Below are positions 11,741-38,283 of a stretch of 41,647 nucleotides of DNA, in pieces. Each line of letters begins with the position of its first letter. Position 1 is the first letter of the stretch. This stretch comes from a virus, in IMG/VR virus record IMGVR_UViG_3300025108_000120, positions 1 to 41,647 of that record, one strand, 5' to 3'. The translations under genes were made by a program, and so were the position numbers. A model generated the notes under the pieces. The model was not told the origin of the DNA, did no database searches, and was given only the letters and a program-made list of their open reading frames with translations.

Positions 11741-11767
11741 TGTTAACACCTCGTCGTCCGTATCTGG

Positions 11768-12425: not shown

Positions 12426-12593
12426 TTACTTAACTTCAGGTGATCCAAAAACTTGTCGCAGCTTTCCCTCGGCATCCTCGCCACGCTCTTTTTTCTTAAC
12501 CTCAGCAGGAGCCACTACCTCTTTAGACAAGCAGTCAGCCGGGGGGCGGTCTCCCATCATCTCAGGCGGCAGATCATCCCACAGGTCAGGCAT
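12426..12593 (-). CDS. Hypothetical protein, 55 aa
   Basis: A 55-residue charged protein (MPDLWDDLPPEMMGD...). The N-terminus is acidic and Pro-rich, the middle is Lys/Glu-rich (EVKKKERGEDAEGK). The ATG overlaps the thioredoxin stop by one base (TGATG), so it is translated from the thioredoxin mRNA. The family is not recognised. Confidence 0.6.
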   Translation of the reverse strand: MPDLWDDLPPEMMGDRPPADCLSKEVVAPAEVKKKERGEDAEGKLRQVFGSPEVK

Positions 12594-12979
12594 CAGGCGT
12601 CCTTTGTCTCCACCCAGATGTACGCACCCAGTTCTTTCTCTAACATCCCAAGCGGCCTCCCGCCTACCAAGCTGTACTCTGCTTTACCGTCCACAAAGAC
12701 CATCAAAGTAGGGATGCTGGTAATGTCGAACCGCTCCATGAGCAACGGTGCTTTCTCCGCTTCAACTTTAATGACCTGAATCTCATCTGCATACTTTGCG
12801 GCAAACTCATCCAGAACAGGTGCCATAGCCTTACACGGTCCACACCATTCAGCCCAGAAATCTACAAGCACCGGCTTTGCCGACGTGGATACCATGTGCT
12901 CAAACTGCTTCTCGTCTACTGGAACGGCAAATCCTTCTGCCACCACAACACGCTTTACTGATTCTTCGTCTCGTTTCAT
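12593..12979 (-). CDS. Thioredoxin
   Basis: A 128-residue thioredoxin-fold protein with the classic WCGPC active site at residues 45-49 and the cis-proline segment SIPT further on. A 20-residue N-terminal extension precedes the fold. Expected role: dithiol/disulphide exchange in the cytoplasm. Its promoter gives a leaderless message and faces, back to back, the promoter of the first oxygenase gene, so both may be controlled together. It could keep oxygenases or the GPx-like protein reduced; that link is inference. Confidence 0.93.
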   Translation of the reverse strand: MKRDEESVKRVVVAEGFAVPVDEKQFEHMVSTSAKPVLVDFWAEWCGPCKAMAPVLDEFAAKYADEIQVIKVEAEKAPLLMERFDITSIPTLMVFVDGKAEYSLVGGRPLGMLEKELGAYIWVETKDA

Positions 12980-13049: not shown

Positions 13050-13751
13050 ATGTACGTCCAAGATAACTTCCTCACCGACCCAGACTTGATTCAAGCCATC
13101 AAAGAAGATGAGAGCTTCTTCCCTCCCCTCATGGACACCTTTGAGGACCGCAATAATATTGGGGACTCTCACGGCATGATGTACCACACCGAAGCGTCAT
13201 CGTGTTTTGCGCCGTACATGTTTTGGGACGGCTGGTGGAACTCTCCTGCCGACACTCTAAAGAAGCAAGTAATTCAGGCTATCTGGGAAAACCCTGCGAT
13301 AAGAAACTTTAGTTTAGACGACGTTATTGGATTTGAGTACTGGACAAGATCATGTGTACCCCCGCAGTACCTCGCACACCACGTCGATGAAGACACATTT
13401 CTTTACGCAAAGTATAAAAGATTCAACGCTCCGATTGCGGGAAGTGTGTGGTACGGATTCACTGAAGCGCCTGAAGGCGGAATGTTAGAAGTTCATAAAG
13501 CCAGCATTGAGGGCTTCCCTGACAATATCTTAGAGCAAGAATCAGTAGAAGCGTACCTGTCTCCTAAGGATGATCGAGAACGTATTGCATATGTGCCTAA
13601 CAGAGTAGTATCGTTTGATGTAGGCAGGAGAATGCACGAAACTACACCGGTCCTATCAGGAATTCGTCAGGTGCTAGTTGTTAACGTGTGGCATAAGGAT
13701 CGTCCACCGTTTGCGTTAGAGGCAGGGGAATTTTTCTATGAGAGTAAATGA
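13050..13751 (+). CDS. 2OG-Fe(II) oxygenase-like protein 1
   Basis: A 233-residue protein with the facial-triad pattern H111-x-D113 and H196, and R206 ten residues later in the place of the 2-oxoglutarate-binding Arg. Unlike most of its neighbours it lacks the 'YxND.(Y/F).GG' block, so it is a more distant branch. No Shine-Dalgarno is present; the ATG at 13050 lies 6 nt after its -10 box. It leads a four-gene plus-strand operon (overlaps of 14, 8 and 8 nt follow). Substrate unknown. Confidence 0.75.
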   Translation: MYVQDNFLTDPDLIQAIKEDESFFPPLMDTFEDRNNIGDSHGMMYHTEASSCFAPYMFWDGWWNSPADTLKKQVIQAIWENPAIRNFSLDDVIGFEYWTRSCVPPQYLAHHVDEDTFLYAKYKRFNAPIAGSVWYGFTEAPEGGMLEVHKASIEGFPDNILEQESVEAYLSPKDDRERIAYVPNRVVSFDVGRRMHETTPVLSGIRQVLVVNVWHKDRPPFALEAGEFFYESK

Positions 13752-14550
13752 ACTTGATTACGGTGTTATCTACATTGAAGATGCGCTACCTAACGCTGCC
13801 GAGTTTATGCGTGTAATTGAAGAACACGACACTAACGCCGATTTGTATCCAGTTATCCCAGCGTGGGAAGAATGGTACGACGGCGGTCCAGTACGCACCG
13901 AAGACGGCTGGAAACAGATTGTAGAGCATACCCATGAAAGCCACAGAGGGCGAGCAAAGCATTTCGACTGGGACCTAAACGAAAATCAACACTGGCCCCG
14001 GAAACAAACAACTCCAGATTTTAGTAAAGCGCACAACCTAGCTGACAAGATAATCAACTTAATTGAACCAGACTACATTAAAGCTCTGGATGTTTGGGCA
14101 GGGATAACCGGCAACACGATGCCCGCCTATATTACACGCAACTACTGCTTACGAGAGTACAGAACTGGTGGCGCTATGGGCGCACACATTGACAAAAACA
14201 TTGAAAATCCTATAAACACAATGGATTGGACTGCATTGCTTTACTTAAACGATGATTACGAAGGGGGCGACCTTTCCTTCCATGCCCGTTCACCGGAAGA
14301 ATTAGACGCACTAGGCACGGACTACAATAAACACGCTGATTTTTTTCTGTCCCCTAAAGCCGGAAGTATCGTGATGTTACCGTGTACCGTAACGCACGCC
14401 GTTTCAGAAATAACAGCAGGTAATAAAGCCTATCTCTTTCTGTTTATGCACACCAAGACCAACATAACCAGCGGATTAGGTGAGCCATACTATCCCATAA
14501 ACGACGCTATCGAAAGGCACCAAAAAGAAATGAACCACGGCAATGTCTGA
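13738..14550 (+). CDS. Prolyl-4-hydroxylase-like 2OG oxygenase 2
   Basis: A 270-residue protein with H150-x-D152, H220 and K230 (Lys, as in true prolyl 4-hydroxylases, instead of Arg). The block YLNDDYEGGDLSF at about 169-181 and the PKAGS turn at 206-210 are typical of the P4H fold. The first 120 residues are a divergent N-terminal region rich in Trp and His. AGGGG lies upstream of the ATG, inside the end of the previous gene. Confidence 0.87.
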   Translation: MRVNELDYGVIYIEDALPNAAEFMRVIEEHDTNADLYPVIPAWEEWYDGGPVRTEDGWKQIVEHTHESHRGRAKHFDWDLNENQHWPRKQTTPDFSKAHNLADKIINLIEPDYIKALDVWAGITGNTMPAYITRNYCLREYRTGGAMGAHIDKNIENPINTMDWTALLYLNDDYEGGDLSFHARSPEELDALGTDYNKHADFFLSPKAGSIVMLPCTVTHAVSEITAGNKAYLFLFMHTKTNITSGLGEPYYPINDAIERHQKEMNHGNV

Positions 14551-15385
14551 GCACTTAGGAATGGGAATCGTCAGGATTGCAGACGCAGTATCCATTGATT
14601 CAAACATCTTCCCTACCATTGAGGCCCTAAGAGCCGAAGCCTTAGCGAAACACTACACATACATTTATGACGACGCCGGTAATGTGCTACACGCCACCAA
14701 CTTAAGTGGACACCGCTTCACACCAGAAGAAATTGAAGCAAACTGTGTCAGGATAAATAACTTTAATGACCTTCAACACGAGTGGGAACAAAGCTATTTT
14801 AAAACCATAGAAACAGAAGTCTACAACGCACTGTTACAGTACGCCACAGAGTTTCCTATGATTGTTCCCTGCCTCTGGTGGAAAACAAAAGGACACGTAC
14901 TTTCGTACAAGGCGGGATCGGCACTTGGACTACACGCTGACAATGACATCAACTACCAGCCCCACTACGAGCCAGACTTTCAACTAGGCGTCAAACACGT
15001 TTTGGCTGCGATTGCATACTTGAACGACGACTATGAAGGAGGCGACATTGTTTTCCCCTACGCCAACGTGACGTACTCGCCTAAGGCCGGAGACGTACTC
15101 CTGTTTCCCGCAAACTTTGTTTGTGCTCACGAAGTCAACCCAATTACCGCAGGCAACCGCTATGCGTACTTATCATACTTTGGACAAGGTTCATCTGCCC
15201 CGGAATATGGAGTCAACATAGTAGAGGACAGCAGTAACATTTACAGCGGTCAAGTCTGGATGCACGACTTTTTTGTAGACTACGAAGAATATGTTACAAA
15301 TCATGAACTCAGTGGAGACTTACTTCTCCCTGTGCTAAGATCGTTCAACTCAAAAGGTACCCGAAAGGAACTTAGTAATGGATAA
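14543..15385 (+). CDS. P4H-like 2OG oxygenase 3 (WWxxxGHV subfamily)
   Basis: A 280-residue protein with H131-x-D133, H196 and R206. The core has YLNDDYEGGDIVF, and PKAGDVLLFP follows. A LWWKTKGHVLSY segment lies just before the first His. The N-terminus has GMGIVRI and the C-terminus VWMHDFFVDYEEY. Those three blocks recur in 15941, 16708 and 18429, marking a paralogous subfamily. This is the only member on the plus strand. The ATG overlaps the preceding stop by 8 nt. Confidence 0.87.
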   Translation: MSEHLGMGIVRIADAVSIDSNIFPTIEALRAEALAKHYTYIYDDAGNVLHATNLSGHRFTPEEIEANCVRINNFNDLQHEWEQSYFKTIETEVYNALLQYATEFPMIVPCLWWKTKGHVLSYKAGSALGLHADNDINYQPHYEPDFQLGVKHVLAAIAYLNDDYEGGDIVFPYANVTYSPKAGDVLLFPANFVCAHEVNPITAGNRYAYLSYFGQGSSAPEYGVNIVEDSSNIYSGQVWMHDFFVDYEEYVTNHELSGDLLLPVLRSFNSKGTRKELSNG

Positions 15386-15974
15386 AAAATCACTAGTCAA
15401 TATCCCCTTCTTCCAAGGACATCTTGATGACATCGACAACGAGTTAATCTCCCATCAAATCACACAGTACGGTGAACCCTGTGGCGATGAAGAGGAGCCG
15501 TGGGACGACCAAGACATTCTGTTACCCGACACCCCGGAGATAAACGAGCTACTAACTCGCATGACTCGTCTAGTTCAGTATGGCGCAGAAAACAATGACT
15601 TAATTCTGAAGAACCAGTGGGCACTAAACTTACAGCACGGGAAGAGTGTCGGACCTCACTCTCACCACGCCAACTTTCACATTCACCCCGAAGACTACTG
15701 GTCGGCAGTCTACTACCCTATAGCCGATGAGAAATCTGCCAAACTCATCCTATCAGCCACTTGGTGTAACACAGTACACAGAAACACACACGTACAGCCG
15801 CAATCGGGAATGTACGTTATTTTTCCGTCCTACGTCCTACACTGGACAGAACGCCAACAGTCACCGGAGACACGTCTTGTAATTGGCGCAAACTTTGATC
15901 CCGCAGAACCAAACATGAACGCAAATGTAGACTTCTCAATCTACGAACGGCGTCCTTCTGTTGACCCCGCCTGA
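15378..15974 (+). CDS. Putative 2OG-Fe(II) oxygenase 4 (Oxy_5-like)
   Basis: A 198-residue protein resembling the 2OG-FeII_Oxy_5 group frequent in marine phages. The blocks are W81ALNLQ, a His-rich metal-binding region (PHSHH, then FHIHPED at 100-106) leading into WSAVYYP, then MYVIFPSYVLHW with H155, and R166. The first metal ligand motif is His-x-His rather than His-x-Asp. AAAGGA precedes the ATG. The 3' end overlaps the convergent minus-strand oxygenase gene by 34 bp, an unusually tight arrangement. Confidence 0.72.
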   Translation: MDKKSLVNIPFFQGHLDDIDNELISHQITQYGEPCGDEEEPWDDQDILLPDTPEINELLTRMTRLVQYGAENNDLILKNQWALNLQHGKSVGPHSHHANFHIHPEDYWSAVYYPIADEKSAKLILSATWCNTVHRNTHVQPQSGMYVIFPSYVLHWTERQQSPETRLVIGANFDPAEPNMNANVDFSIYERRPSVDPA

Positions 15975-16708
15975 CTGTCAGCAATCAGATTGGGCATCCA
16001 AATCCTAGCGCCTTCTTGCCCGACAATCTCGTTGTTCGGGGTATCCACACCATAGCAGGCCATGCTTAAAAAGGCAACTCGTCTCCCTGACTCTACAGGA
16101 TACACTTCATGCCTTCCGACATAACTGGAGGGGTAAATAGCGACCGACCCAGCTTCCGGCGTAAACGCATAATCTGCATGAGGGAAGTTAATTTCTCCGC
16201 CAGTATAATCCGTCCCACAGTTGTTTAGATAAAGATTAATGCTGGTACTGTTGTGCATCGAAACCTGATTAGGTGGAGATTCACCCCATTCAAACGGTAC
16301 CTGATCGTCACAGTGGGGACCAATGTGCTGCCCTGCGTCGTACACCGCCACATGCCCCTTCGGTCGCCACCAAGCCGTTGTAGCCGCATCCGGGAAGATC
16401 GTGCAGTACTCTACAAGTGCCCGATACAGTGCATCCTCACACGAGTCCACAAAGTCTAAGTACTCCTGAGGAACTTCAGTTGCACGGCTAGCCCCACGAG
16501 TTTCCAAGAAGCGCTGTGGGGCCATCCCGATATCCTCAAGGCTAAACTTGAACCCTGTCTGATTAACGGCATGATCTTTCTCAAACTTAAAAGTCTGCTC
16601 CGACTCACCCGTAAGCCAACCACAATACTTCGCAAAAAAGTCAGGATCAACTTCCAATACGTTGCGGCAAATCACAACGCCCATACCAACATGCTCTGCT
16701 TGAATCAT
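15941..16708 (-). CDS. P4H-like 2OG oxygenase 5 (WWxxxGHV subfamily)
   Basis: A 255-residue protein with H132-x-D134, H200 and R210. TAWWRPKGHV lies before the first ligand; YLNNCGTDYTGGEINF and PEAGSVAIYP form the core. The N-terminus has GMGVVICRN and the end has IWMPNLIAD, matching the subfamily blocks. GGAGGGG precedes the ATG, which shares a base with the stop of 16708-17601. It is the last gene of its minus-strand set. Confidence 0.87.
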   Translation of the reverse strand: MIQAEHVGMGVVICRNVLEVDPDFFAKYCGWLTGESEQTFKFEKDHAVNQTGFKFSLEDIGMAPQRFLETRGASRATEVPQEYLDFVDSCEDALYRALVEYCTIFPDAATTAWWRPKGHVAVYDAGQHIGPHCDDQVPFEWGESPPNQVSMHNSTSINLYLNNCGTDYTGGEINFPHADYAFTPEAGSVAIYPSSYVGRHEVYPVESGRRVAFLSMACYGVDTPNNEIVGQEGARIWMPNLIADSQAGSTEGRRS

Positions 16709-17601
16709 TACCCCTCCGAGTTTAACAAAGTAGTTCTGTATTGCTCTGAGCGCTCGTCATAGCCACGCTCTTCTAAAAAGGCCCGGTAATCTTCACGCAA
16801 CGTGGGCATCCACACATTCGTACTGGATTCAGCCCCTTCAGGATTTACCAAAGGATCAATAACGTCTTCCCGGACAGCGGAATTAGGGGTACCCTGAGAG
16901 TACCAACCCAAATACGACATCCTACGCCCCTTCCCCACCGGGCAAACTTCGTGAGCCGCCACATAGTTAGAAGGGAAGAATATAATCGTGCCCGCCTCAG
17001 GGACAATAGGGTCGATATTTAAATAGTTGAAATTGTGGGCACCTTCTGTAAAGTTTCTAGCGTTCAACTCTGACTCAGGCACAGAAGAGTTTAGATATGT
17101 CACATTAGACACAACATTACGTAAAGCTAACTCCTGCGATGTCCGGTGAACTCCGTACACATACTCAGCACTGATATCTGAGTGTGATCCTAGATAAACA
17201 CCGTCACCATAGGACACCACATGCCCCTTCACCTTCCACCAAACGCAATTGTACGCCAAAGGGTAACAAGTAAAATACTTAAGTAAACAAGCGTCTTTAG
17301 CATCTTCCAGCGCACGTAGCAAGTGTCTTACATCTTCTCGTGGGTTTAGGTGAAGAGAAGAACCACGGCGGGGCATAGACTCGTATGTGTCTAACCCAAA
17401 CAGATATCCACTTTTGTTCTCGTAAGCAATCTCGCCCGTTTCAGGGTTGGTGACCTCTGTGTACATTCCGGCATACTCTTCGTCAACAAGCAGAGAAACC
17501 TCATCATAAAGTTTCTCCCACTCGCACGAAACGGCATTGCGGAAAACAACTACACCGCCGCCTAAATCTTCTGGCTCGGGATCATTGTACGAAACAAACA
17601 T
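16708..17601 (-). CDS. P4H-like 2OG oxygenase 6 (WWxxxGHV subfamily)
   Basis: A 297-residue protein with H140-x-D142, H217 and R227. CVWWKVKGHVVSY precedes the first ligand. The YLN...EG core is interrupted by a longer insertion (about 170-190) than in its paralogs. The C-terminus has NVWMPTLREDY. It starts at an ATG with no Shine-Dalgarno but a perfect-geometry leaderless promoter at 17608-17636, which lies in the end of the TauD-like gene. Confidence 0.86.
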   Translation of the reverse strand: MFVSYNDPEPEDLGGGVVVFRNAVSCEWEKLYDEVSLLVDEEYAGMYTEVTNPETGEIAYENKSGYLFGLDTYESMPRRGSSLHLNPREDVRHLLRALEDAKDACLLKYFTCYPLAYNCVWWKVKGHVVSYGDGVYLGSHSDISAEYVYGVHRTSQELALRNVVSNVTYLNSSVPESELNARNFTEGAHNFNYLNIDPIVPEAGTIIFFPSNYVAAHEVCPVGKGRRMSYLGWYSQGTPNSAVREDVIDPLVNPEGAESSTNVWMPTLREDYRAFLEERGYDERSEQYRTTLLNSEG

Positions 17602-17607
17602 ACACGT

Positions 17608-17636
17608 AGTCTACTGAAACAGAGAAGCACTGTCAA
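17608..17636 (-). promoter_or_regulatory. Leaderless promoter inside the end of the TauD-like gene
   Basis: On the minus strand TTGACA (17631-17636), 17 bp, TAGACT (17608-17613), 6 nt, ATG at 17601. Confidence 0.72.
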
Positions 17637-18432
17637 TGGCTGGGTGGCTGCAAAAGTAGCCTAAAAACTTTCGCTCACTCTGCTTAAAGCCACCAGAAAC
17701 AGCGTGTGACATCGTAAACAAATCGCTCACAAGCATATCCCCCACTTGCCAATTCCAAGTCAGTCTACGTTTAAGGTCCCGCATAATTTCTACTTGAATA
17801 GTATCAACATGCGCTTCAAGCTCATCTATCTCACTAGGTGAAGGATCACGCCCGTCAAAAGAAACTAGAGACACATACCCCTGACAGACTCTAATGACTT
17901 CTGCATCTTTAAACGGGTGGCGCTCAACTGCGTGACGTAAATTGATAGAAGCCCTATGACCCTTCCTGTCCACAATATCTTGGTCAGAAATCACACACTT
18001 CCGTAAGAACTTTACCACCTCTGCGGGCAAGTCCTCAACTAACTTAGAGTTATCTTTAAAGTATGTCGCCCCCACATCCGTCGAACAATCAAACTTAAGC
18101 ATGTTCCAGAACCCTGCCACTGTAGAATTCTCTAATGATGCCTCAACATGCTCTAAATGCCAATTCACGGAAAGATCACTGCCGGTATGCTCTCCATAGT
18201 CAAACGTGTGCGAATGATCTTCAACATACCGGCGAAGACAAGACCGATCAAAGTCAGCAGTCCGTGGAACCCACCCGATCTCGTCACCTAACGCCACAAT
18301 AATGTTTAACTGTTCTTCTTCGGTAGCGTGTAATCCACGCAACCCAAAAACCCCATCGTGTAGAAACTTATCGGCAAAGTATGCAGAATCGTTAATTACA
18401 TCGCTGTAACAGCAATCAATTACATCAATCAT
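17611..18432 (-). CDS. TauD/TfdA-like 2OG dioxygenase
   Basis: A 273-residue protein of the TauD/clavaminate-synthase type. H92-x-E94 lies in NWHLEHVEAS and H243 and R254 in SHAVSGGFKQSERKF. The WNWQVGDMLVSDLF block before the second His is typical of the family. A His-x-Glu metal motif is normal in this group. TauD enzymes hydroxylate small molecules or amino acids, so this member may act on a metabolite or a free amino acid rather than a peptide. The ATG overlaps the stop of 18429-19496 by 4 nt. Confidence 0.82.
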   Translation of the reverse strand: MIDVIDCCYSDVINDSAYFADKFLHDGVFGLRGLHATEEEQLNIIVALGDEIGWVPRTADFDRSCLRRYVEDHSHTFDYGEHTGSDLSVNWHLEHVEASLENSTVAGFWNMLKFDCSTDVGATYFKDNSKLVEDLPAEVVKFLRKCVISDQDIVDRKGHRASINLRHAVERHPFKDAEVIRVCQGYVSLVSFDGRDPSPSEIDELEAHVDTIQVEIMRDLKRRLTWNWQVGDMLVSDLFTMSHAVSGGFKQSERKFLGYFCSHPAIDSASLFQ

Positions 18433-19496
18433 GGCTCAATCGGCGCACCCTCCGTACCACAGTTAGCCGCCCCGTCAAGTTCTTCGGCCTCGTGAGTATC
18501 CCCGTACTGGGCCACACACCGCCCCTGATACACGGGATTGATCCCGATGTTCTGTTCCTCGCCCGTAGAAAAGCGAGAATAGTCAGACTTGCAGTACCGC
18601 TCATAATCATCGTAAATGTTATTCATCCACATTGCGGGACACCACTGAAAGCTGTCGTCTGGCTCTACGATATTGATGTTTCCTTCTTGGTGCGGAGAGC
18701 CTTGACCAAAGAAAGATAGATAAGTATAACGTACCCCAGCGTCCATTCGGCTTACCTGATGGGACGCCATGTAATTCGTTGGGAAAAATACGATGTCGCC
18801 TTTCTTGGGCTTGTACTCAATACCCAGATGAAAGAACTCTAGCATTCCGCCAGTAAAGTTTGTACCGTCTAACTCGTCTTCACTCTCAACAGAGTCGTTT
18901 AGATACACTAGGCATCCACAAGTCTGCCGTGCGGCCATCTGCCCACGAGGCATATAACGCACGCCCTCGGTTACTTTATAGTTTGTATCATTATCGCAGT
19001 GAGCGCCCAAGATACCTTCATCGGCATAACGAAGAATGTGCCCCCGATTTTTCCACCACACGCACCCAACAAGCAGCGGGAAGTAGTCGATATAACGCAG
19101 AAGCGCTTTGTAAATCGTGTCCTCCATGCCGTGAAAAAACTCACGTGGGACATCCGGCGTGTCTTTTGTTACAGGGTGAAGTAACCGAACGGGTGTTGCA
19201 GGAATATCTTCAGGCCGATATCTAAAACCATCTTCGTTGATGCCATACTTTTCCCCGTCCTCACCAACAATATACTCCCACCTGTTCTGATGAGATACCT
19301 CGGACTGTGCATCAATATACTTGAATACTTCTTCTGTATCTCCTGTAACGGCCTTTCTGAACACCATAACACCGCCGCCCAAGTCCTCTACCTCAAACTC
19401 ACCAATTTCCTTGAGAGCAGCATCATCAATAACAGGTGTGTCGGGATGGGGGTCCCCACTACGCCAATCGTCGGGCTGAACATTGTCGTCGGTCAT
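18429..19496 (-). CDS. P4H-like 2OG oxygenase 7 (WWxxxGHV subfamily), longest
   Basis: A 355-residue protein, the longest oxygenase here. H166-x-D168, H246 and R256 form the active-site set. CVWWKNRGHILRY precedes the first ligand and GGGVMVFRKAV and AMWMNNIYDDYERY are the subfamily end blocks. It adds an acidic N-terminal extension (about 35 residues) and a C-terminal tail of about 60 residues that is Asp/Glu/Gly-rich with two Cys. Only a weak GAAG precedes the ATG. Confidence 0.87.
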   Translation of the reverse strand: MTDDNVQPDDWRSGDPHPDTPVIDDAALKEIGEFEVEDLGGGVMVFRKAVTGDTEEVFKYIDAQSEVSHQNRWEYIVGEDGEKYGINEDGFRYRPEDIPATPVRLLHPVTKDTPDVPREFFHGMEDTIYKALLRYIDYFPLLVGCVWWKNRGHILRYADEGILGAHCDNDTNYKVTEGVRYMPRGQMAARQTCGCLVYLNDSVESEDELDGTNFTGGMLEFFHLGIEYKPKKGDIVFFPTNYMASHQVSRMDAGVRYTYLSFFGQGSPHQEGNINIVEPDDSFQWCPAMWMNNIYDDYERYCKSDYSRFSTGEEQNIGINPVYQGRCVAQYGDTHEAEELDGAANCGTEGAPIEP

Positions 19497-19497
19497 G

Positions 19498-20241
19498 TTA
19501 CTTCTTTACTAAAATTTGGAACCCAATTGCATGAGGGATATGGTAGCTTGTAATGTCTGTGCGTTCATCAAGCGCCTCGTACAAGTCGTACAACGGCTCA
19601 ATGTAGTAGTCAGGAGAGTAGAGACGCATCATTTCGTTCACGCCTGAAAGATACAGCGCCCCACCGGAATTTGTAATATCAACAATCTTCCCGATCAGCG
19701 CAGGATTAAGAGTAAGGTCAGGTGAGTGCATGTGAACGAAATCAAACTGTGGCTCTGTCATTGCTTCTAATTCGGCATACTCAATTACAGTGTAATCTCC
19801 AGTGAACTTGTATTCAGGGTGTGTGAGAACATGCGCCTCAAAAGCCTGTAAACAATCGTTATTTAAGAAAGTTAAAGCACACCCCCTTCTGTTTAAATCT
19901 GAAACAAAGTCAAAGTTTCTATCGGGTGACGCAACTAACGCCGAAGTCGGTTTAATCAAATCGACAACCATCTGCGAGTAGATACCAGTGGAAATGTAAA
20001 CCATCTCTTTCCAGCCCGCAACTTTGCCTGATAGCAAGTCCCACACATGCATATAAAAGTCGGTGCCGACCGCAATTGAACGACGGTCAAGATTCTTAGA
20101 GCGCCAGTCAGCGTTAACCGCCCGGACAATATCATCATGCACCGAAAAGAAATCGTAGTCAAGCTCCTGAGATGCGTTTTTGGAAAACTCGTAAGTCAGT
20201 GCGTTCGCAATTAAAAACTTATTACCTAGAATCTTATCCAT
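19498..20241 (-). CDS. Possible Rossmann-fold methyltransferase-like protein
   Basis: A 247-residue protein. The second half alternates strands and helices in the manner of class I methyltransferases: FTGDYTVIEY, then FDFVHMHSPDLTLNPALIGKI, then GGALYLSGVNEM. A clear S-adenosylmethionine loop (GxGxG) is not visible. I cannot name a substrate. The ATG at 20241 overlaps the preceding gene by 8 nt; an upstream TTG is less likely. It sits between two oxygenase groups and so may belong to the same modification pathway. Confidence 0.35.
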   Translation of the reverse strand: MDKILGNKFLIANALTYEFSKNASQELDYDFFSVHDDIVRAVNADWRSKNLDRRSIAVGTDFYMHVWDLLSGKVAGWKEMVYISTGIYSQMVVDLIKPTSALVASPDRNFDFVSDLNRRGCALTFLNNDCLQAFEAHVLTHPEYKFTGDYTVIEYAELEAMTEPQFDFVHMHSPDLTLNPALIGKIVDITNSGGALYLSGVNEMMRLYSPDYYIEPLYDLYEALDERTDITSYHIPHAIGFQILVKK

Positions 20242-20533
20242 TAACAATACTCTCCGCTAGCTGCCAGCGATGCCACAGTCGCCGCACATTCACCATCAAT
20301 AACACGTTAATTTCCTTCAATGCATCGTTAGAAGCTAATGTGTGGCCCTGCTCTAAACGAATGAAAGGGAAGGTTGATTTAATACCAGCAACGATCTCAT
20401 CAAACGAAGAAGACGAAATAGTTTCTGTATTCATGCCGAGAGAGTACATCACCGTAATTAACTCTCGCTCCACATGCGCCAAATCTGCTACAGCATTATA
20501 AGCCGGTGAACTTGCATTCCCAACCCTACTCAT
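20234..20533 (-). CDS. Hypothetical helical protein, 99 aa
   Basis: A 99-residue, mostly helical protein (AHVERELITVMYSLGM, then EINVLLMVNVRRLWHRW). No motif or membrane span is recognised. The ATG lies within the end of the upstream gene (8-nt overlap). Confidence 0.6.
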   Translation of the reverse strand: MSRVGNASSPAYNAVADLAHVERELITVMYSLGMNTETISSSSFDEIVAGIKSTFPFIRLEQGHTLASNDALKEINVLLMVNVRRLWHRWQLAESIVNG

Positions 20534-20801
20534 CGGCAAACTCGTCTAAGCTCTCAGCGGACAACGGTAAAGAAGTCCTTAACGGATCAGTGTCACCGGA
20601 GTAGAAATGACAAAGGAAGCCCTCGCCCGAAGGCACATTCCACGCAGTCGTGGACGAATCGAACTTTACAGGCTCTTCAGACACCCGAGAAGCGTCTGTC
20701 GGCTCTGGGCCTTGGTCAGACTCCCCAAAGGCGTTAATATCTACACCGTCTGCTGCGGCCTCTCGCTCCACGGAGCTATCAACGACGACATACTTCTTCA
20801 T
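20526..20801 (-). CDS. Hypothetical acidic protein, 91 aa
   Basis: A 91-residue acidic protein. It has a short beta start (MKKYVVVDSS), a Ser/Asp/Glu-rich middle with no predicted fold and a more hydrophobic patch (GFLCHFYSG). It may be largely disordered. It overlaps both neighbours by a few bases. Confidence 0.6.
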   Translation of the reverse strand: MKKYVVVDSSVEREAAADGVDINAFGESDQGPEPTDASRVSEEPVKFDSSTTAWNVPSGEGFLCHFYSGDTDPLRTSLPLSAESLDEFADE

Positions 20802-21016
20802 GATTCCAAGGCTTCCAAGTTGCCTACCATCGTCAAAAGCGAACGATACGCAGGGTAATCAGTGTCATTCTCGGACACCGGAATAACATAGCTTGACGTT
20901 AGTGTGCTCGGATCAATGTTCAGCATCATCGCCATAGACACAATGTTTTGATTTAAAAAATCCATTGCTTTTTCTTTAGCTTTTTGCCGCTGGGCATCGG
21001 AAACTGTTACAGCCAT
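20798..21016 (-). CDS. Hypothetical protein, 72 aa
   Basis: A 72-residue protein with a charged N-terminal helix (DAQRQKAKEKAMDFLNQN) followed by a Met-rich helix and a short C-terminal region. It overlaps the next gene by ATGA. No known family is recognised. Confidence 0.6.
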   Translation of the reverse strand: MAVTVSDAQRQKAKEKAMDFLNQNIVSMAMMLNIDPSTLTSSYVIPVSENDTDYPAYRSLLTMVGNLEALES

Positions 21017-21023
21017 AGGTTTC

Positions 21024-21875
21024 TCACAATCTTCCTAAATCTTTCTCGATGTTCTTATATGATACACAATCAATGTATAGTTGCGCAAGTATCGGGCGAG
21101 GCTCTTCCATCAGATTCTTCGTTGCCGCCCAGAGCCTGAAAGACAAAGGCATGTCGGGGGTAACTTGATTCAGAGAACACTCCCCCGTTCTCACATATTG
21201 TGCCACCTGCATATCGGGAAGAGCCATCAAATCCCGAACAATTTCGTTAGAATCCTCTTCGTCAACATGCAATTCAAAATACTCCAACACGTCACTTGCT
21301 AACTGAGCAACCGGCTCGGTGTTATCTGCGTACAGCAAAGCCCACTGCCACTCCAGTAAAAGTTTAAAGAACTCATGCAAAGAGCAGGCAGCAGTGTACG
21401 GATGAGTCATCTGTAACTTTTCAATAATTCCTGCACCCACATCAGAGTCAACTTGCGTATAAATGATATGAGCCAGCCCTTCGTGGTGTAACAGAGTTAA
21501 ATGCTTTTCAATCATTCTCAGAAAATCAGAACCCGTGTGGTCCAGAACAGTAGACTTGTAGTCTTCTCTACCATATAACTCGTCTACGGTCATAGGCATA
21601 TGCGTCTCTGTAGAAGAGCACAGCGCATTCATCCAATGATCGGGATGGTCGGTACGTGGCACCGACGCCCACAGCCTATAACCTCCTCTGAATCTAACTG
21701 GATCGCCATCATTAATGATGGGCATCATGCCCGGAATTGTATCAATTAAATCCTGAACATCTGGATACTCGTCAGGATCAATACCCTCCAGCCGCATAGA
21801 CTGTTCTAAAAATGGACGAAGCCGACTCAACTTATCTTCAAGCGCAATTTTCTGCACACTGTTTCTTAAACGCAT
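21024..21875 (-). CDS. Hypothetical protein, 283 aa
   Basis: A 283-residue, mainly helical protein that I cannot place. His and Trp are frequent in the middle (LTLLHHEGLAHIIYTQ; EFFKLLLEWQWALLY), which might suit a helical metal-binding or haem-oxygenase-like fold, but no complete signature is seen. GAAAGG lies 9 nt before the ATG and a TATAAT box about 22 nt upstream. It heads the group of four unknown genes and the methyltransferase-like gene. Confidence 0.6.
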   Translation of the reverse strand: MRLRNSVQKIALEDKLSRLRPFLEQSMRLEGIDPDEYPDVQDLIDTIPGMMPIINDGDPVRFRGGYRLWASVPRTDHPDHWMNALCSSTETHMPMTVDELYGREDYKSTVLDHTGSDFLRMIEKHLTLLHHEGLAHIIYTQVDSDVGAGIIEKLQMTHPYTAACSLHEFFKLLLEWQWALLYADNTEPVAQLASDVLEYFELHVDEEDSNEIVRDLMALPDMQVAQYVRTGECSLNQVTPDMPLSFRLWAATKNLMEEPRPILAQLYIDCVSYKNIEKDLGRL

Positions 21876-21897
21876 AAAAGTACCTTTCGCTACTACT

Positions 21898-21903
21898 ATT
21901 ATA
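21898..21903 (-). promoter_or_regulatory. -10 box upstream of 21024-21875
   Basis: TATAAT on the minus strand, 22 nt before the ATG. No acceptable -35 at 16-18 bp is visible, and the box lies just after the stop of the GPx-like gene. Confidence 0.4.
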
Positions 21904-21907
21904 CCGT

Positions 21908-22525
21908 TTAGTAGTCCAGTACCTCGTCAATGCACTCTCGGATTGTCCAACTTTCACCAGTAGTTAGAGGAACGTCGTCTAGCGGATCGCTCTGCCAATT
22001 GAAACGAGTAATCATCTCACCGCTCCTGCTGACAACAAACTTTTCCCAACTGTGCGGAATACGGGCGACTGCACCACCCGACTTGTTCCAGCCTAAATAT
22101 GCCGCCTCTGAAGTGTCGGCAGGAGACGCATCCTTAACACGGGTCACGTTACCCAGTAAAGCAGAGTACACTAGACTTCCGCCCTTACCGTTAACTTCAA
22201 TTTTTTCAGACAGCGGAAAATTAACAAATGGATACGTCTGCTTTACCCACTCAGAAATCTCCTCGTTTTCACCAGGCTCCATCTGCCCGAACTGATTGCA
22301 GGGGAAGCCAACAACGCTAAACCCACGATCTTTAAACTCGTCATGAACTTTCTGTAACTGCCACAACTGGCGTGTCGTGCGTCCAAAAGACCAGAAGGTG
22401 CTGCACTGGGGAGTATACCCCAACTTTGACACAATGTTCACGACCAGCGTCACCTTACCATCAAATTGTTGCATGAAGTCTGCTTTGCCATCAATTGACT
22501 TCATCTGCACATCATAAACGCTCAT
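21908..22525 (-). CDS. Glutathione-peroxidase-like protein lacking the peroxidatic Cys
   Basis: A 205-residue protein of the GPx family. The blocks VNIVSKLGYTPQC (30-41), GFPCNQFGQMEPGENEEI (73-90) and a Trp-containing SWEKF segment line up with classic GPx sequences. In normal members the first block reads SKCG or SKUG; here residue 35 is Leu (codon TTG) and the nearest Cys is C41. C76, the position used by resolving-Cys enzymes, is kept. It may therefore not act as an ordinary peroxidase. The ATG at 22525 follows GGAGG; a start 12 nt earlier overlaps that site. It overlaps 22522-22884 by 4 nt. Confidence 0.8.
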   Translation of the reverse strand: MSVYDVQMKSIDGKADFMQQFDGKVTLVVNIVSKLGYTPQCSTFWSFGRTTRQLWQLQKVHDEFKDRGFSVVGFPCNQFGQMEPGENEEISEWVKQTYPFVNFPLSEKIEVNGKGGSLVYSALLGNVTRVKDASPADTSEAAYLGWNKSGGAVARIPHSWEKFVVSRSGEMITRFNWQSDPLDDVPLTTGESWTIRECIDEVLDY

Positions 22526-22884
22526 TGGTCCCTCCATTTATATTTTTCGCTCCAAGCAGCATGTTGATCAATCCAAGGATGCGGATTGCTAGAAACTTGT
22601 CCGTCGATAGGGCACGAGAACATGATTTCGCCTGTGTCACTATCACCAATCTCAACAACCCCGGTCAACGTTTCATCACTAGGTGTACACTGTACTCTAA
22701 CCAAGCAGCTAAATGGGACCTCAGTAAATGCAGATAAAACATAAGTCTCATTCATTTTGTTGAACGAAGTAAAATCTAAACTACCCTTAAGCATGTGGGC
22801 GCTCCCACAGTTATCTTCCGTGGGTAAATCCAACAAGAACTTCTCAATACCCAGAGGGGTGTGTACATTCATTGCGTATGCCAT
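22522..22884 (-). CDS. Hypothetical beta-rich protein, 120 aa
   Basis: A 120-residue protein with many short beta strands (ETYVLSAFTEVPF, CLVRVQCTP, GVVEIGD, EIMFSCPI). The ATG at 22884 follows GGAGG within the end of the DUF6065-like gene (16-nt overlap), so a functional link with that gene is plausible. The family is not recognised. Confidence 0.6.
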   Translation of the reverse strand: MAYAMNVHTPLGIEKFLLDLPTEDNCGSAHMLKGSLDFTSFNKMNETYVLSAFTEVPFSCLVRVQCTPSDETLTGVVEIGDSDTGEIMFSCPIDGQVSSNPHPWIDQHAAWSEKYKWRDQ

Positions 22885-23597
22885 GATACCTCCGGCACTT
22901 CTGGTACGTCTAATTTCACGGACCCCTCGTAGCGTGGGCCAATCTGATTGCCTTGCTCGTCTAACCCTGTACGGATTCCGTTCATCCAAGTCCACGGCGC
23001 TTCCTGCATCTTCTTCATCTTGGCCTCGCTGTAGCGCATACGGCTTTCCATCAAATCGGGCTTATCCCATAAATTCTCAACATTACACTCAATAGCAGGC
23101 ATAAGGTTTGTATCAAAAACGAAAAAGAATGCGAACGGCATACCCTTAGGAAACACAACCTCTTTACCTGGCTCCGTCAGTTTCCAAGCCGTTGGAACTT
23201 CATCCGGCCACCAGTCGCTAGGGATGATTGAAGACAGCGGGACAGCGCCCTCTACAAAATAGTTAGGGGACCCAGTTACCCACGTATGATAGCCCTCGTC
23301 AGTATTGAATGCCCAACCCAACGGAAAATCGACCATGCCTATCTTATTGCAGTCCGCAACCATACGGTTGTTGTACTCTCCGCCCGAGACAAGTGTGGGA
23401 ACAGTGTCACCCCCATCCCACTTTACGACAACATCACACGGTAACAAAATTTCCCAACCGTTCACATTTGCCATAGACAAAGGCAAGCAGCGGTAAGCGT
23501 GTTTATTGTAAGTGTCGTCCATCCAGCCACGCATAAGCCGTGACTGTTGAATCTCCGGCGAACCTTGATGGGTACGCAAAAGAGTTAGTTTGCTCAT
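22869..23597 (-). CDS. DUF6065-like protein
   Basis: A 242-residue protein that resembles DUF6065. The characteristic blocks are YRCLPLSMANVNGWEIL near residue 40, DFPLGWAFNT, VTGSPNYF, PSDWWP and a VFPKGMPFAFFF block. The family is of unknown function but is often found in aquatic phages and in bacteria near 2OG oxygenase genes. The ATG at 23597 follows GAGGA and overlaps the preceding oxygenase gene by 4 nt, which ties it to the island. Confidence 0.62.
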   Translation of the reverse strand: MSKLTLLRTHQGSPEIQQSRLMRGWMDDTYNKHAYRCLPLSMANVNGWEILLPCDVVVKWDGGDTVPTLVSGGEYNNRMVADCNKIGMVDFPLGWAFNTDEGYHTWVTGSPNYFVEGAVPLSSIIPSDWWPDEVPTAWKLTEPGKEVVFPKGMPFAFFFVFDTNLMPAIECNVENLWDKPDLMESRMRYSEAKMKKMQEAPWTWMNGIRTGLDEQGNQIGPRYEGSVKLDVPEVPEVSWHTQ

Positions 23598-24463
23598 TGT
23601 TTCCTCATCTGATCTTGTGTGTAGCCCTGATTGGCTTCCCAACTAGCAACAGCGTACTTGTGAATCTCATCGTAAATAATTTTGCGTAACTGCTCTTCAT
23701 CAAAGGCGGCTACCTGTGTCGGGCTACTTTCAGGCTGTGTCTGACCGCCCTCAGGGAAGGCAGGCTGAGCAGGTTGCTCAGAAGACTGCCCGAAGTCTCG
23801 TGAGAACCCACCATGCTGATGTGAGTCATCGTTGTAGTCAAACATTGTTACCGCAGCGTATTTGAACCCTGATGTCACCGGCAGAGATGCATGAGCGTAG
23901 ATGTACGTTGAAGGGAAAAATATTGAATCACCCGCTTCAGGCTTATACGAAATGTCCAGCAGCGGAAAGTGTAGCTCCCCACCCTCGTACCCGTCATTAA
24001 AGTACACAATGTTAGATACCGTACAAATGTAAGAAAATCCGTGGTCAGTATGCACTGCGAAGTGCTCCCCTGGCCCGTACCGAACAAAGTTGATTGCCTC
24101 CATGTAGCGCATAGTAATGTTGTACATGCTCTGATAGTGATTCAATCCAGACTTAATCCGGCCCGCAACATCTGTGTACACATTGTTGATCTCCGAAAAT
24201 GAAGGCGGCGTATTAGGGATGTACTCCTCAGCCATCTTAAAGTCGGTACAATCCCGGTACTCAGGCATTTTTACGCCCTCACCCACTAACGACTCGTGCC
24301 ACTTAAAGTAATCGTGTGAACTATCATCGAGCGCAGCATGTAAACGGTCAGGAACGTAGTCTACTCCATCTAAACAGTTTTTGTAAACAACAATCCCCAA
24401 CTGTGGATTACCAATATATTCATAGTCAAACTCGGATGCTGCGCTATAGTTACCGTAACTCAT
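23594..24463 (-). CDS. P4H-like 2OG oxygenase 8 with a disordered tail
   Basis: A 289-residue protein with H138-x-D140, H191 and K201, so it has the Lys variant of the cosubstrate-binding residue, as in prolyl 4-hydroxylases. YFNDGYEGGELHF and PEAGDSIFFP form the core. After the fold a 70-residue tail is Pro/Gln/Ser-rich and probably disordered, ending in a helix (EEQLRKIIYDEIHKY). The ATG has no Shine-Dalgarno but is 6 nt from the -10 box of the 24470-24498 promoter. Confidence 0.88.
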   Translation of the reverse strand: MSYGNYSAASEFDYEYIGNPQLGIVVYKNCLDGVDYVPDRLHAALDDSSHDYFKWHESLVGEGVKMPEYRDCTDFKMAEEYIPNTPPSFSEINNVYTDVAGRIKSGLNHYQSMYNITMRYMEAINFVRYGPGEHFAVHTDHGFSYICTVSNIVYFNDGYEGGELHFPLLDISYKPEAGDSIFFPSTYIYAHASLPVTSGFKYAAVTMFDYNDDSHQHGGFSRDFGQSSEQPAQPAFPEGGQTQPESSPTQVAAFDEEQLRKIIYDEIHKYAVASWEANQGYTQDQMRKQ

Positions 24464-24469
24464 GCTGTT

Positions 24470-24498
24470 ATCGTATCAGACGTATCGGGTAGAGTCAA
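24470..24498 (-). promoter_or_regulatory. Leaderless promoter of oxygenase 8
   Basis: On the minus strand TTGACT (24493-24498), 17 bp, TACGAT (24470-24475), 6 nt, ATG at 24463. It lies at the stop of the next oxygenase gene upstream. Confidence 0.7.
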
Positions 24499-25048
24499 AT
24501 CTTTCTAGGACATGCCAAAACGTAGTGATGTTTAATCGCTCACCAGACTGAATTTTAGCCACTTGATGCAGATACTTTTCGCTTGTTGGGAACGCAACCA
24601 GTGTCCCTGCTTTTGGAAAAATAAACAAATCTTGATTCGGCATAAAAAGATCACCACCAGTAAAATCGGTGCCGTGATCGTTAAAATACAGAAGCGTGGA
24701 AATGTCACGGGAGGGGTAGCCTCCGTAAGTTCCTAAGTTCAAGGCCGTATCTTGAAGGGTGTCAGCGTGAAGCTGTAACTCCCATCCGGGAAGCCCACTA
24801 ACTAGCGAGGCTAGTTCTTCATGCCCGACCACACATGAATAGTAGTCTTCAATAAACTCTTTAACATTTGATCTTAAGTCTCCCATCAAGGGACTCAAGA
24901 CATCGCTCTCACCCATCTGAACACACTTATCGTATAAGTGGTCTTCAATATCGTGACGAGGGAGCTTGGATATTTCTTCGGTAAACAGCGCAACAGTGTC
25001 AGGAGCTAAAAAATCAGGTACAACTACTACACCATCTCGCTCTTTCAC
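24476..25048 (-). CDS. P4H-like 2OG oxygenase 9
   Basis: A 190-residue compact member with H94-x-D96, H161 and R171. Core blocks are YFNDHGTDFTGGDLFMP and FPKAGTLVAFP. It starts with GTG at 25048, overlapping the preceding stop (GTGA), with GAGGGGG upstream. The short N-terminal region suggests a minimal catalytic domain. Confidence 0.85.
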   Translation of the reverse strand: MKERDGVVVVPDFLAPDTVALFTEEISKLPRHDIEDHLYDKCVQMGESDVLSPLMGDLRSNVKEFIEDYYSCVVGHEELASLVSGLPGWELQLHADTLQDTALNLGTYGGYPSRDISTLLYFNDHGTDFTGGDLFMPNQDLFIFPKAGTLVAFPTSEKYLHQVAKIQSGERLNITTFWHVLERFDSTRYV

Positions 25049-25683
25049 CAGGCCCCCTCGTTATAGTTCTCCACAACAGTATAAAACGACGGCGTGGTCC
25101 AGCGTTCACCACTCGTTACCGTGCGGACCCCATGAAGATAGTTTCGATCACCTACGAACATTACTGCCAAACCTGGCTTTGGGGTAATTTCAATATCGTG
25201 GTCAGGGAAGTACAGTTCCCCACCAGTAAAATCGTCGTTGTAATAAATTAGAGAGTTGAGGTCATACGTGGGAAAAGGATTGGGGCTTCCGCAATTTAGC
25301 TCTTTGTCAGCGTGCGGCTGTTGCTCAATACCCTCAAACCATCGCATCAAAACAGGGTTACGTGATGACACTTTAACGTTGAAAAACTCCTGCACTTTAC
25401 CGGCCATCTTTTCAATATATTTTTCAATAGTCTGGTACACCACAGGATTCTTTCGTCCTATAATCCCACCACTGCACATACGATCATTCCAATAGGCAGC
25501 ATCATAAATGCATACACCGTTCTCGTCGTACTCCGTATCTTTACCGTTGTCCCATTCATCAATCGTGGGTAAGAAAGCCTGAACCAGACTTAGATCGTCA
25601 GGGTCAATAAAATTTTCAAACACAACGATGTTGTTAGAACTGTCACCAAAGTACCCTGAAGGGATAATTGAAACTTCTTCCAT
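25045..25683 (-). CDS. P4H-like 2OG oxygenase 10
   Basis: A 212-residue protein with H124-x-D126, H184 and R194. Core blocks are YYNDDFTGGELYFPDHDIEI and PKPGLAVMF. It is the first oxygenase gene after the proline-repeat protein gene, with 38 bp between them, and has its own leaderless promoter there. It shares the 'ALIKE' layout of oxygenase 9 and could be its duplicate. Of all the oxygenases it lies closest to the PP[F/Y]F repeat gene. Confidence 0.87.
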   Translation of the reverse strand: MEEVSIIPSGYFGDSSNNIVVFENFIDPDDLSLVQAFLPTIDEWDNGKDTEYDENGVCIYDAAYWNDRMCSGGIIGRKNPVVYQTIEKYIEKMAGKVQEFFNVKVSSRNPVLMRWFEGIEQQPHADKELNCGSPNPFPTYDLNSLIYYNDDFTGGELYFPDHDIEITPKPGLAVMFVGDRNYLHGVRTVTSGERWTTPSFYTVVENYNEGAW

Positions 25684-25721: not shown

Positions 25722-26777
25722 TTACTTGAACGCCGGGGGAAAGTACGGTGGGAAGTAAGGCGGGAAGAACGGTGGGAAGAACGGTGGGAAGAAGGGCGGG
25801 AAGAACGGGGGGAAGTAAGGCGGGAAGAAGGGCGGGAAGAACGGGGGGAAGTAAGGCGGGAAGAACGGTGGGAAAAAGGGCGGGAAGTAAGGCGGGAAGA
25901 ACGGTGGGAAGAACGGCGGGAAGTAAGGCGGGAAGAACGGGGGAAAGAACGGCGGGAAGAACGGGGGGAAGAACGGCGGGAAGAACGGTGGGAAAAAGGG
26001 CGGAAAGAACGGGGGGAAGTAAGGTGGAGCCACAGGGGTGACCGTTACAGTATTCGACCAGTTTCCAACAATATGATCGTTTTCTAACCTACCTCGGATA
26101 CTGTACTCAGTACCATTAGTCAAGCCAGAGAGAACCTTAGACGAAGACGTAGGAGAGTTTGTAATAGTTGTTGTTGAAGCGCTGCCACCCGCAGGGGTAA
26201 CCTCCAACTTGATATAGTTGTCGTAACTTTCATCATAGTAGTCTGAACTGGAATCCGATGCGCCGAAGTTACCTACAGTATGTGCTGTCCAAGAAACAGT
26301 AGTACTAGCGTCATCACCAGTAGTAGCACTAATAGTGTTCAAAGTGGAGGGCTTTTTGACTGGAATGAAATCACCGATTTCTTCAGTCTCTGTAGTGCCG
26401 TCTTCCGCAATAGTGGACCGCATGAACGTGTAAGCAAAACCTGCCCTCACCTCATCTTGCGCAGAAGTGTGAGAGGTAACAACGTCAAACGTACAGTCCT
26501 GCTCTACCCCCTGCGCTACGTTAGCCGCACCCGCAGAAGTAGCGGAAGGGCCACCCTTGCCCGCAGTGTCAGAACCGGCAGGTCCAGTAGTGTTAGTCCA
26601 GGCCCGGATATCTGCTGTGTTGCCTTTACCTGTGTAGGACGCAGTAATACCAAACGTCACGTCGTTGGCAGTTGAGTTGCCAATGAGAGGCGTACCTCCG
26701 CCAGACTGCCCCGGAGATTTAGTTACAGTGCTCTCGGGCAGCTTACCGCCTTGCCCTACATCTTTGCCTACAGCCAT
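25722..26777 (-). CDS. Virion-like fibronectin-III protein with a PP[F/Y]F repeat tail
   Basis: A 351-residue protein. The N-terminal 130 residues are Gly/Thr/Ser-rich (structural-protein style). Residues of about 148-245 fit a fibronectin type III domain (ASTTVSWTAH, YIKLEVTP, LSGLTNGTEYSIRGR, NTVTVTP). The rest is 25 tandem tetrapeptides PPFF or PPYF with PPAF last, followed by Lys. Pro-Pro-aromatic repeats of this kind occur on FN3 proteins of marine phages. It ends the structural gene block and is immediately followed by prolyl-hydroxylase-like genes. An adhesin or tail-decorating role is inferred. Confidence 0.8.
   Translation of the reverse strand: MAVGKDVGQGGKLPESTVTKSPGQSGGGTPLIGNSTANDVTFGITASYTGKGNTADIRAWTNTTGPAGSDTAGKGGPSATSAGAANVAQGVEQDCTFDVVTSHTSAQDEVRAGFAYTFMRSTIAEDGTTETEEIGDFIPVKKPSTLNTISATTGDDASTTVSWTAHTVGNFGASDSSSDYYDESYDNYIKLEVTPAGGSASTTTITNSPTSSSKVLSGLTNGTEYSIRGRLENDHIVGNWSNTVTVTPVAPPYFPPFFPPFFPPFFPPFFPPFFPPFFPPFFPPYFPPFFPPFFPPYFPPFFPPFFPPYFPPFFPPFFPPYFPPFFPPFFPPFFPPFFPPYFPPYFPPAFK
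25728..26027 (-). repeat. 25 tandem 12-bp units encoding PP[F/Y]F
   Basis: 25 contiguous 12-bp units (300 bp) with synonymous variation. Purine-rich on the plus strand (G/A with only short C/T interruptions). Sixteen units read PPFF, eight PPYF and one PPAF. The unit length keeps the frame on expansion or contraction. Confidence 0.95.
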
Positions 26778-32376: not shown

Positions 32377-32442
32377 GGCCTCAACCGATCCTTAGAACAG
32401 TGTGCCCTCAAGCACATCAGTAGTACTACCCTTATTCTAGCA

Positions 32443-32482
32443 CAAGAGGTGGGGCGGATTCTACAACCAGCCCCACCCCTTG
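32443..32482 (-). terminator. Hairpin between fibre genes
   Basis: CAAGAGGTGGGGC (32443-32455) pairs with GCCCCACCCCTTG (32470-32482) with one mismatch around a 14-nt loop. The 196-bp gap around it (32377-32572) has no gene. TAGAAT, read on the minus strand at 32434-32439, could be a -10 box for the next gene. Confidence 0.65.
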
Positions 32483-32572
32483 TCGGGTAATCGCCTGCAC
32501 GGCGGAGTAACTACTGATCCTCACTGTCGCATGGACCCGTAGCGCCACGGTTTGTTTTCCCGTGACATCTTA

Positions 32573-34447: not shown

Positions 34448-34460
34448 TGCCTCTCCAAAC

Positions 34461-34940: not shown

Positions 34941-34942
34941 TT

Positions 34943-35609: not shown

Positions 35610-35618
35610 GTAACTCTC

Positions 35619-35921: not shown

Positions 35922-35956
35922 TGTATACCCCTCTCGTATTCCCCCCTTTCGGAGTC

Positions 35957-36817: not shown

Positions 36818-36826
36818 AATGTTCCT

Positions 36827-38257: not shown

Positions 38258-38283
38258 AATTAAGCCTCCTACAAGATATTGTA

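Follow-up and report, generated by a model that had tools for sequence, protein, structure and literature searches.

Eleven 2-oxoglutarate oxygenase genes beside a proline-aromatic repeat gene in an uncultured phage: a candidate system for modifying a virion appendage

We analyzed a stretch of 41,647 nucleotides from a tailed phage (positions 1 to 41,647 of IMG/VR record IMGVR_UViG_3300025108_000120; hereafter, the window) and found that 12.6 kb of it is an island with eleven genes for 2-oxoglutarate (2OG)- and Fe(II)-dependent oxygenases, most of which resemble prolyl 4-hydroxylases (P4Hs). Next to the last of these genes lies a gene for a protein that ends in a long proline-aromatic repeat. 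A block of seven to twelve oxygenases, mostly prolyl-hydroxylase-like, is conserved in dozens of related uncultured phages. We think that this is probably a dedicated system that hydroxylates prolines, and perhaps other residues, in a virion appendage, with the repeat tail as the main candidate substrate. We number the oxygenases OX1 to OX11 in order of position (Table 1).

The oxygenases of the island

An initial annotation, made from the letters of the window alone, reported eleven 2OG oxygenase genes in these 12.6 kb. All eleven open reading frames (ORFs) are present, and ten of them match known oxygenase families. Eight (OX2, OX3, OX5, OX6, and OX8 to OX11) exceed the curated cutoff for PF13640; OX3, OX5, OX6, and OX8 are full-length paralogs, and OX10 and OX11 are a separate pair. 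OX4 matches PF13759 (32.2 bits, with a cutoff of 27), and OX7 matches the TauD family, PF02668 (31.3 bits, also with a cutoff of 27), and the aligned sequences share HLE, H, and R. The remaining protein, OX1, does not belong to any family in Pfam, PHROG, or NCBIfam. Using hhalign with thin alignments, we found no link between OX1, OX4, or OX7 and the P4H group; OX1 was placed afterwards, from a deeper alignment and an AlphaFold model (pLDDT of 86, built from a 39-sequence alignment). The best matches of this model in the PDB include PiuC, the HIF prolyl hydroxylase PHD2, and a Pseudomonas P4H (E = 1e-5 to 1e-4, probability 1.00), and the His-x-Asp, the distal His, and the Arg are all conserved in orthologs of OX1. 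As judged by its predicted structure, OX1 is a 2OG oxygenase that is nearest to prolyl hydroxylases and comes from a family outside the libraries that we searched. Therefore, all eleven proteins are 2OG oxygenases by family or by predicted fold. For OX9, phmmer also gave matches to P4Hs of solved structure, 3itq/5hv0 (E = 9e-6) and 5c5t (E = 2e-3), and its best solved relatives are protein prolyl and lysyl hydroxylases.

The number of oxygenases is as unusual as the initial annotation supposed: there are 8 PF13640 genes in 12.6 kb, versus 7 in 1.59 Mb of control phage contigs. The thioredoxin and the glutathione-peroxidase-like (GPx-like) protein that it mentioned are confirmed by matches to PF00085 and PF00255.

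All eight PF13640 genes of the window encode the HxD...H triad and the Arg or Lys for 2OG, and related loci (described below) contain 579 complete P4H domains, of which 576 retain all four positions (His, Asp/Glu, His, and Arg/Lys). The claim that the metal-binding residues are kept in every oxygenase holds within the window but fails for two orthologs of OX4, in which the distal His is replaced by Gln (HWT to QWT). These are in G010 and G011, the most diverged of the syntenic records that carry this gene. The His-x-His metal motif that was proposed for OX4 was mistaken: FHIHPED is not conserved (orthologs have HIY), and the conserved motif is PHSHH. When the oxygenases are compared to those of four relatives, nonsynonymous divergence is just 0.00 to 0.29; at synonymous sites, the three more distant relatives show high or saturated divergence. 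By this measure, all eleven genes are under purifying selection. Because of this pattern and the metal residues, we agree that the genes are not decaying.

Comparison across related contigs indicates that the genes are conserved as a set. First, 12 viral contigs encode proteins with 51 to 100% identity to OX3, and each of these contigs contains five to eight PF13640 domains. The order of the oxygenases, the thioredoxin, the GPx-like gene, the DUF6065 gene, and the small ORFs is kept in these contigs, except that OX2 is often absent and that part of the order is changed in G012, the most distant record. Second, a scan of IMG/VR with an alignment of OX1 identified 101 relatives. P4H genes are present in 67 of the 70 further loci that were reached through OX1 alone (47 to 55% identity), and 56 of the 70 have at least four. 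These more distant loci have a looser form of the island: the DUF6065 and GPx-like genes and orthologs of OX4 and of the gene at 19498 recur, and a common order is the repeat gene, several P4Hs, DUF6065, the 19498-type gene, the OX1-type gene, the OX4-type gene, GPx, and several P4Hs. Two findings that would speak against a modification system, a lack of a metal pocket in most of the folds and the presence of only one or two of the genes in related phages without locus-level conservation, had been named in advance, and we observed neither.

DUF6065 is present in nearly all of the islands. Its predicted structure (AlphaFold2, pLDDT of 79) is matched by Foldseek to dUTPases (E = 2e-4) and has a dUTPase-like beta-clip fold, so we rejected it as a twelfth oxygenase. 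A defense-system origin for the island was also rejected: when PADLOC was run on ten island proteins, it reported just one generic 2OG accessory model. Some of the related islands encode a protein with an HIPRTSG motif (L352, 1656-2456, and L373, 2680-3462), and the one in L352 has a weak match to Sulfotransfer_2. This hints at sulfation as an extra step, but the match is too weak to build on.

The repeat protein and its link to P4H genes

The initial annotation missed the gene between the tail fiber genes and OX11, directly upstream of OX11. It encodes an fn3-like protein with about 25 Pro-Pro-(Phe/Tyr)-Phe units (the PPFF repeat) at its C terminus. Every unit is PP[F/Y]F except for the last, PPAF, and the protein ends in PPAFK. 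Codons for Pro are interchangeable within the repeat; both inside a single genome and from one genome to another, synonymous codons are mixed, but the residues stay fixed. Therefore, selection acts on the protein, and the shuffled codons rule out an artifact of tandem repetition at the level of DNA. Across loci, position 4 is Phe in 815 of 822 units, and position 3 is F, Y, H, or W in 766 of them.

In all relatives with sequence that spans the region, the gene immediately before OX11 is the repeat gene. The N-terminal part of the protein is unrelated in two of these relatives (G007 and G008) and consists of many fn3-like repeats in G012; in all three, the tail is retained at the same place. 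Among the repeat proteins of islands found through OX1, 43 of 45 have FK at the C terminus. In L080, a similar tail runs on into a Peptidase_S74 fiber chaperone, and the profile match to the chaperone starts at residue 126, right after PPAFK. Proteins of the Peptidase_S74 family cleave themselves, and self-cleavage after PPAFK would yield the same FK end. In L045, L101, and L114, the PP[F/Y]F tract precedes Hint/intein-like sequences (with weak matches to Intein_splicing from Pfam in L101 and L114), which suggests other ways to process the repeat. Also, G002 (L027), which is 100% identical to the window in most neighboring genes, has three fewer PPFF units than the repeat at 25722-26038: either the number of units may change rapidly or the assemblies may differ.

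Starting from the repeat, we scanned IMG/VR for DNA matching a pattern that encodes three PP[FY][FY] units; the matched loci show an in-frame repeat ORF. PF13640 is present in 67 of the 79 contigs selected in this way, with at least four copies in 47 of the 67 (mostly 4 to 11 copies where it occurs) and an overall density of 1.46 domains per 10 kb. In contrast, contigs selected for a tail fiber repeat, GNVTGNVTG, which is of the kind found in the gene at 26789, contain PF13640 in just 6 of 77 cases, with a density of 0.044 domains per 10 kb (P = 3e-24 by Fisher's test). Contigs with codon patterns for Pro-Thr or for Pro-Pro-Ala contain it in 3 of 50 cases each; these two controls were selected as DNA patterns regardless of reading frame, and none of the three control sets was matched by habitat. 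The three controls rule out general proline richness or fiber content as the cause of the link. The 80 repeat loci represent 67 groups that have no appreciable DNA in common.

The link holds in the other direction as well. Starting from OX1, the repeat was found in 44 of 70 loci and in 13 further records, for a total of 57 of 70, and of the 13 records without it, 12 are fragments of less than 38 kb. In these loci, the repeat gene is 0 to 1.6 kb from the nearest P4H and is often at the head of the array. When we searched 84,980 prokaryotic genomes (257 billion bases) for the repeat pattern, there were only 17 matches. Across the genomes compared, the repeat is a feature of phages that is tied to P4H arrays.

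What the oxygenases may modify

The initial annotation proposed a dedicated modification system, and given the conservation of the set, the intact catalytic residues, and the low nonsynonymous divergence, this is the best-supported reading. The data establish the genes themselves, their intact catalytic residues, selection on both the enzymes and the repeat, the tight linkage in both directions, the neighboring fiber genes, and the similarity of OX9 to P4Hs; that the targets include the prolines of a virion appendage is an inference. During infection, the P4H-like and other 2OG oxygenases would hydroxylate appendage residues after translation. We infer that the main substrate is the C-terminal tail of the repeat protein, which would be modified before or during assembly of the tail fiber region. 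The paralogs may divide the labor, by acting on different prolines (the first or the second of each pair), on different residues, or in sequence, and OX1, OX4, and the TauD-like OX7 may target the neighboring aromatic residues or other fiber proteins. A plausible role of the thioredoxin and the GPx-like protein is to maintain the Fe(II) enzymes or the thiols of the substrate in the reduced state. We would expect the product to be a rod of the polyproline type on the surface of the virion: stiff, polar, and possibly adhesive. For the phage, the benefit might be that a very hydrophobic proline-aromatic tail becomes more soluble and stiffer, or it might be adhesion. More tentatively, there may be an undescribed and widespread class of tailed phages that makes a hyper-hydroxylated Pro-Pro-aromatic-Phe fiber with a C-terminal FK, using DUF6065 and 7 to 12 oxygenases that are specific for positions or residues.

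Several points weigh against hydroxylation of the PPFF tail. A search for hydroxyproline in the virions of chloroviruses failed (PMC7019647). Membership in PF13640 does not fix the substrate. About ten oxygenases are more than one simple repeat would obviously need, so some of them probably have other targets, and DUF6065, with its dUTPase-like fold, is not explained. Twelve of the 79 repeat contigs have no match to PF13640, and some of these are 36 to 39 kb long: either the repeat can occur on its own, with no enzyme linked to it, or the fragment ends before the enzyme gene. Also, repeat length is not significantly correlated with the number of P4Hs (rho = 0.21, P = 0.16).

We considered whether the oxygenases might modify other virion proteins, such as the long tail fibers, or lysines or other residues, so that the PPFF tail is a mere neighbor within an appendage module. 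Fiber genes do lie in the same block, and the 2OG genes of cyanophages (cultured or derived from single cells) adjoin tail fibers that have other proline-bearing repeats, of the Gly-X-Y type in S-CAM7 and AG-345-F15 and of the RQPRNF type in S-SCSM1, and no PPFF. However, among the syntenic relatives, divergence is far greater in the fibers than in either the oxygenases or the PPFF tail, and the statistical link is to PPFF, not to the fiber repeat of the gene at 26789. On this evidence, modification of other virion proteins seems unlikely. We give still less credence to a pathway for hypermodification or repair of DNA or nucleotides (AlkB- or TET-like), even though DNA repair was proposed as a role for the 2OG genes of cyanophages (PMC3037559), DUF6065 has a predicted dUTPase-like fold, and the island includes a methyltransferase-like ORF. 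No AlkB-type or TET/JBP model from Pfam matches anything in the window, the best solved relatives of OX9 act on proteins, and the island adjoins fiber genes and tracks a protein repeat.

It is very improbable that the enzymes alter the host's 2OG pool or metabolize small molecules, such as taurine or amino acids: there is one TauD-like enzyme, and 2OG signaling (the 2OG/NtcA idea) was also proposed for cyanophages (PMC3037559), but such a role would not need eight diverged P4H paralogs, linkage to a structural repeat, or a conserved place behind fiber genes. We see just as little chance that the PPFF protein is the precursor of a secreted or injected peptide (akin to ribosomally synthesized and posttranslationally modified peptides) that the oxygenases mature: the conserved FK and the swappable N-terminal part are reminiscent of a precursor whose core is constant, but the fn3 domains, the fusion to Peptidase_S74, and the position in the fiber block indicate a virion appendage, and no peptidase or transporter was recognized in the island.

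Comparison to known systems and genomic setting

P4Hs rank with the most abundant auxiliary genes in viruses of the Baltic water column, and what viruses use them for is unknown (PMC9301287, PMC7019647) or "remains cryptic" (PMC9301287). The island suggests why prolyl hydroxylases are so often carried by aquatic viruses, in a form that can be tested: a conserved multienzyme block with one specific repeat gives a defined enzyme set and a peptide (PPFFPPYFPPFF) for testing the role of viral P4Hs. If hydroxylation of the appendage is correct, then a major "auxiliary metabolic gene" would belong to the building of virions and not to the metabolism of the host, and there would be a new substrate, and possibly a new fiber material, for prolyl hydroxylases that function in bacteria. 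If the fiber is indeed hyper-hydroxylated, it would be a new fibrous biomaterial and a reason for prolyl hydroxylases being so common in aquatic viruses.

We know of no operon that contains a chlorovirus P4H along with its substrate. For the P4H of chlorovirus PBCV-1 (Eriksson et al. 1999, as cited in PMC9301287 and PMC7019647), the likeness, as far as the citing papers describe it, is that the same virus encodes a P4H and a proline-rich repeat protein; the differences are that there is a single enzyme instead of an array, that the virus infects algae, and that the repeat is different. T4-like cyanophages have the same families of 2OG-Fe(II) oxygenases as the island (phrog_61 and phrog_81), and OX9 is about 26 to 35% identical to its best matches. 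In cyanophage S-SCSM1, a pair of tail fibers is surrounded by six 2OG genes; in cyanophages S-CAM7 and AG-345-F15, there are Gly-X-Y stretches close to a P4H; and none of the six cyanophage records that we checked contains PPFF. Cyanophages show a weaker form of the same oxygenase-fiber theme. One of the short tail fibers of S-SCSM1 (L405, 2081-3346), which lies between 2OG genes, has a long RQPRNF/RVPFR-type insertion that is missing from a neighbor with otherwise similar ends; this is possibly another oxygenase-linked fiber repeat.

Collagen-like fibers with prolyl or lysyl hydroxylases, from phages and mimivirus, likewise combine a hydroxylase with a proline-rich fibrous protein of the virion. 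Unlike in those systems, no Gly-X-Y repeat was found in the window, and Pro-Pro-aromatic-Phe cannot form a collagen helix because it does not have Gly at every third place. The mastigoneme of Chlamydomonas (PMC11015965), with hydroxyproline-rich helices in extracellular filaments, resembles the proposed tail. Plants have several P4H paralogs (PMC7960765), but the hydroxyproline-rich glycoproteins of plants and algae are O-glycosylated, whereas the island has no recognized glycosyltransferase, its repeat is rich in aromatic residues, and the organisms are unrelated. We found no account of the PP[F/Y]F repeat or of the oxygenase array in the open-license literature. What sets the island apart from the chlorovirus and collagen-like systems is the enzyme array, the noncollagen repeat, the OX1 family (absent from the libraries searched), and DUF6065 with its predicted dUTPase-like fold.

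Upstream of the repeat gene and on the same strand, most genes are for fibers and virion structural proteins, according to PHROG. A syntenic 105-kb contig encodes a contractile tail sheath that is closest to those of phages of Arthrobacter, Gordonia, and Brevibacterium, which suggests, without proving it, that the hosts are Actinobacteria. Searches with DUF6065, OX8, OX9, and GPx found no close match in cultured phages, and for DUF6065, there was no matching phage record at all.

Table 1. Features of the oxygenase island and its surroundings
Feature	Position	Strand	Basis or remark
Thioredoxin (PF00085)	12593..12979	-	Profile match; stays adjacent to OX1 in relatives
OX1, 2OG oxygenase, predicted PHD2/PPHD-like fold, no Pfam/PHROG/NCBIfam family	13050..13751	+	Alignment and AlphaFold model; 101 viral relatives
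OX2, P4H-like 2OG oxygenase (PF13640)	13738..14550	+	Sole oxygenase often absent in relatives
OX3, P4H-like (PF13640)	14543..15385	+	Full-length paralog of OX5, OX6, and OX8
OX4, 2OG-FeII_Oxy_5 (PF13759)	15378..15974	+	Profile match; distal His lost in G010/G011
OX5, P4H-like (PF13640)	15941..16708	-	Profile match
OX6, P4H-like (PF13640)	16708..17601	-	Profile match
OX7, TauD-like 2OG oxygenase (PF02668)	17611..18432	-	Profile match
OX8, P4H-like (PF13640)	18429..19496	-	Profile match
Conserved island protein, no family match (Pfam, NCBIfam), Rossmann-methyltransferase-like by eye	19498..20247	-	HMM matches in 49 ORFs of OX1 loci
Three short ORFs (20234, 20526, 20798), conserved	20234..21016	-	Kept in relatives
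Island protein, no family match (Pfam, NCBIfam)	21024..21875	-	Kept in relatives
GPx-like (PF00255)	21908..22537	-	Recurs in islands, often as two copies
DUF6065 protein (PF19541, 4e-44), likely start 23597	22869..23642	-	Profile match; matches in 65 ORFs of OX1 loci
OX9, P4H-like (PF13640)	23594..24463	-	Profile match; phmmer match to P4H structures
OX10, P4H-like (PF13640), paralog pair with OX11	24476..25048	-	Profile match
OX11, P4H-like (PF13640)	25045..25683	-	Profile match
Candidate substrate: fn3-like protein, C-terminal (PP[F/Y]F)25 tail, end PPAFK	25722..26777	-	Adjoins OX11 in relatives covering the stretch
DNA coding for the PP[F/Y]F repeat	25722..26038	-	Synonymous codons vary, residues fixed
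Tail fiber/virion appendage genes, upstream of the repeat gene, same strand	26789..41577	-	PHROG matches for most large ORFs

Elsewhere in the window, the protein at 11084-11749, which looks secreted and has no family match, contains a linker rich in Pro, Thr, and Ala (PPPRVTPPPETAPPATQPPVT) and a C-terminal stretch that is lysozyme-like by eye. The fiber protein at 29674-32376 has a C-terminal part that resembles an S74-like fiber chaperone by eye, along with a cysteine-rich insert.

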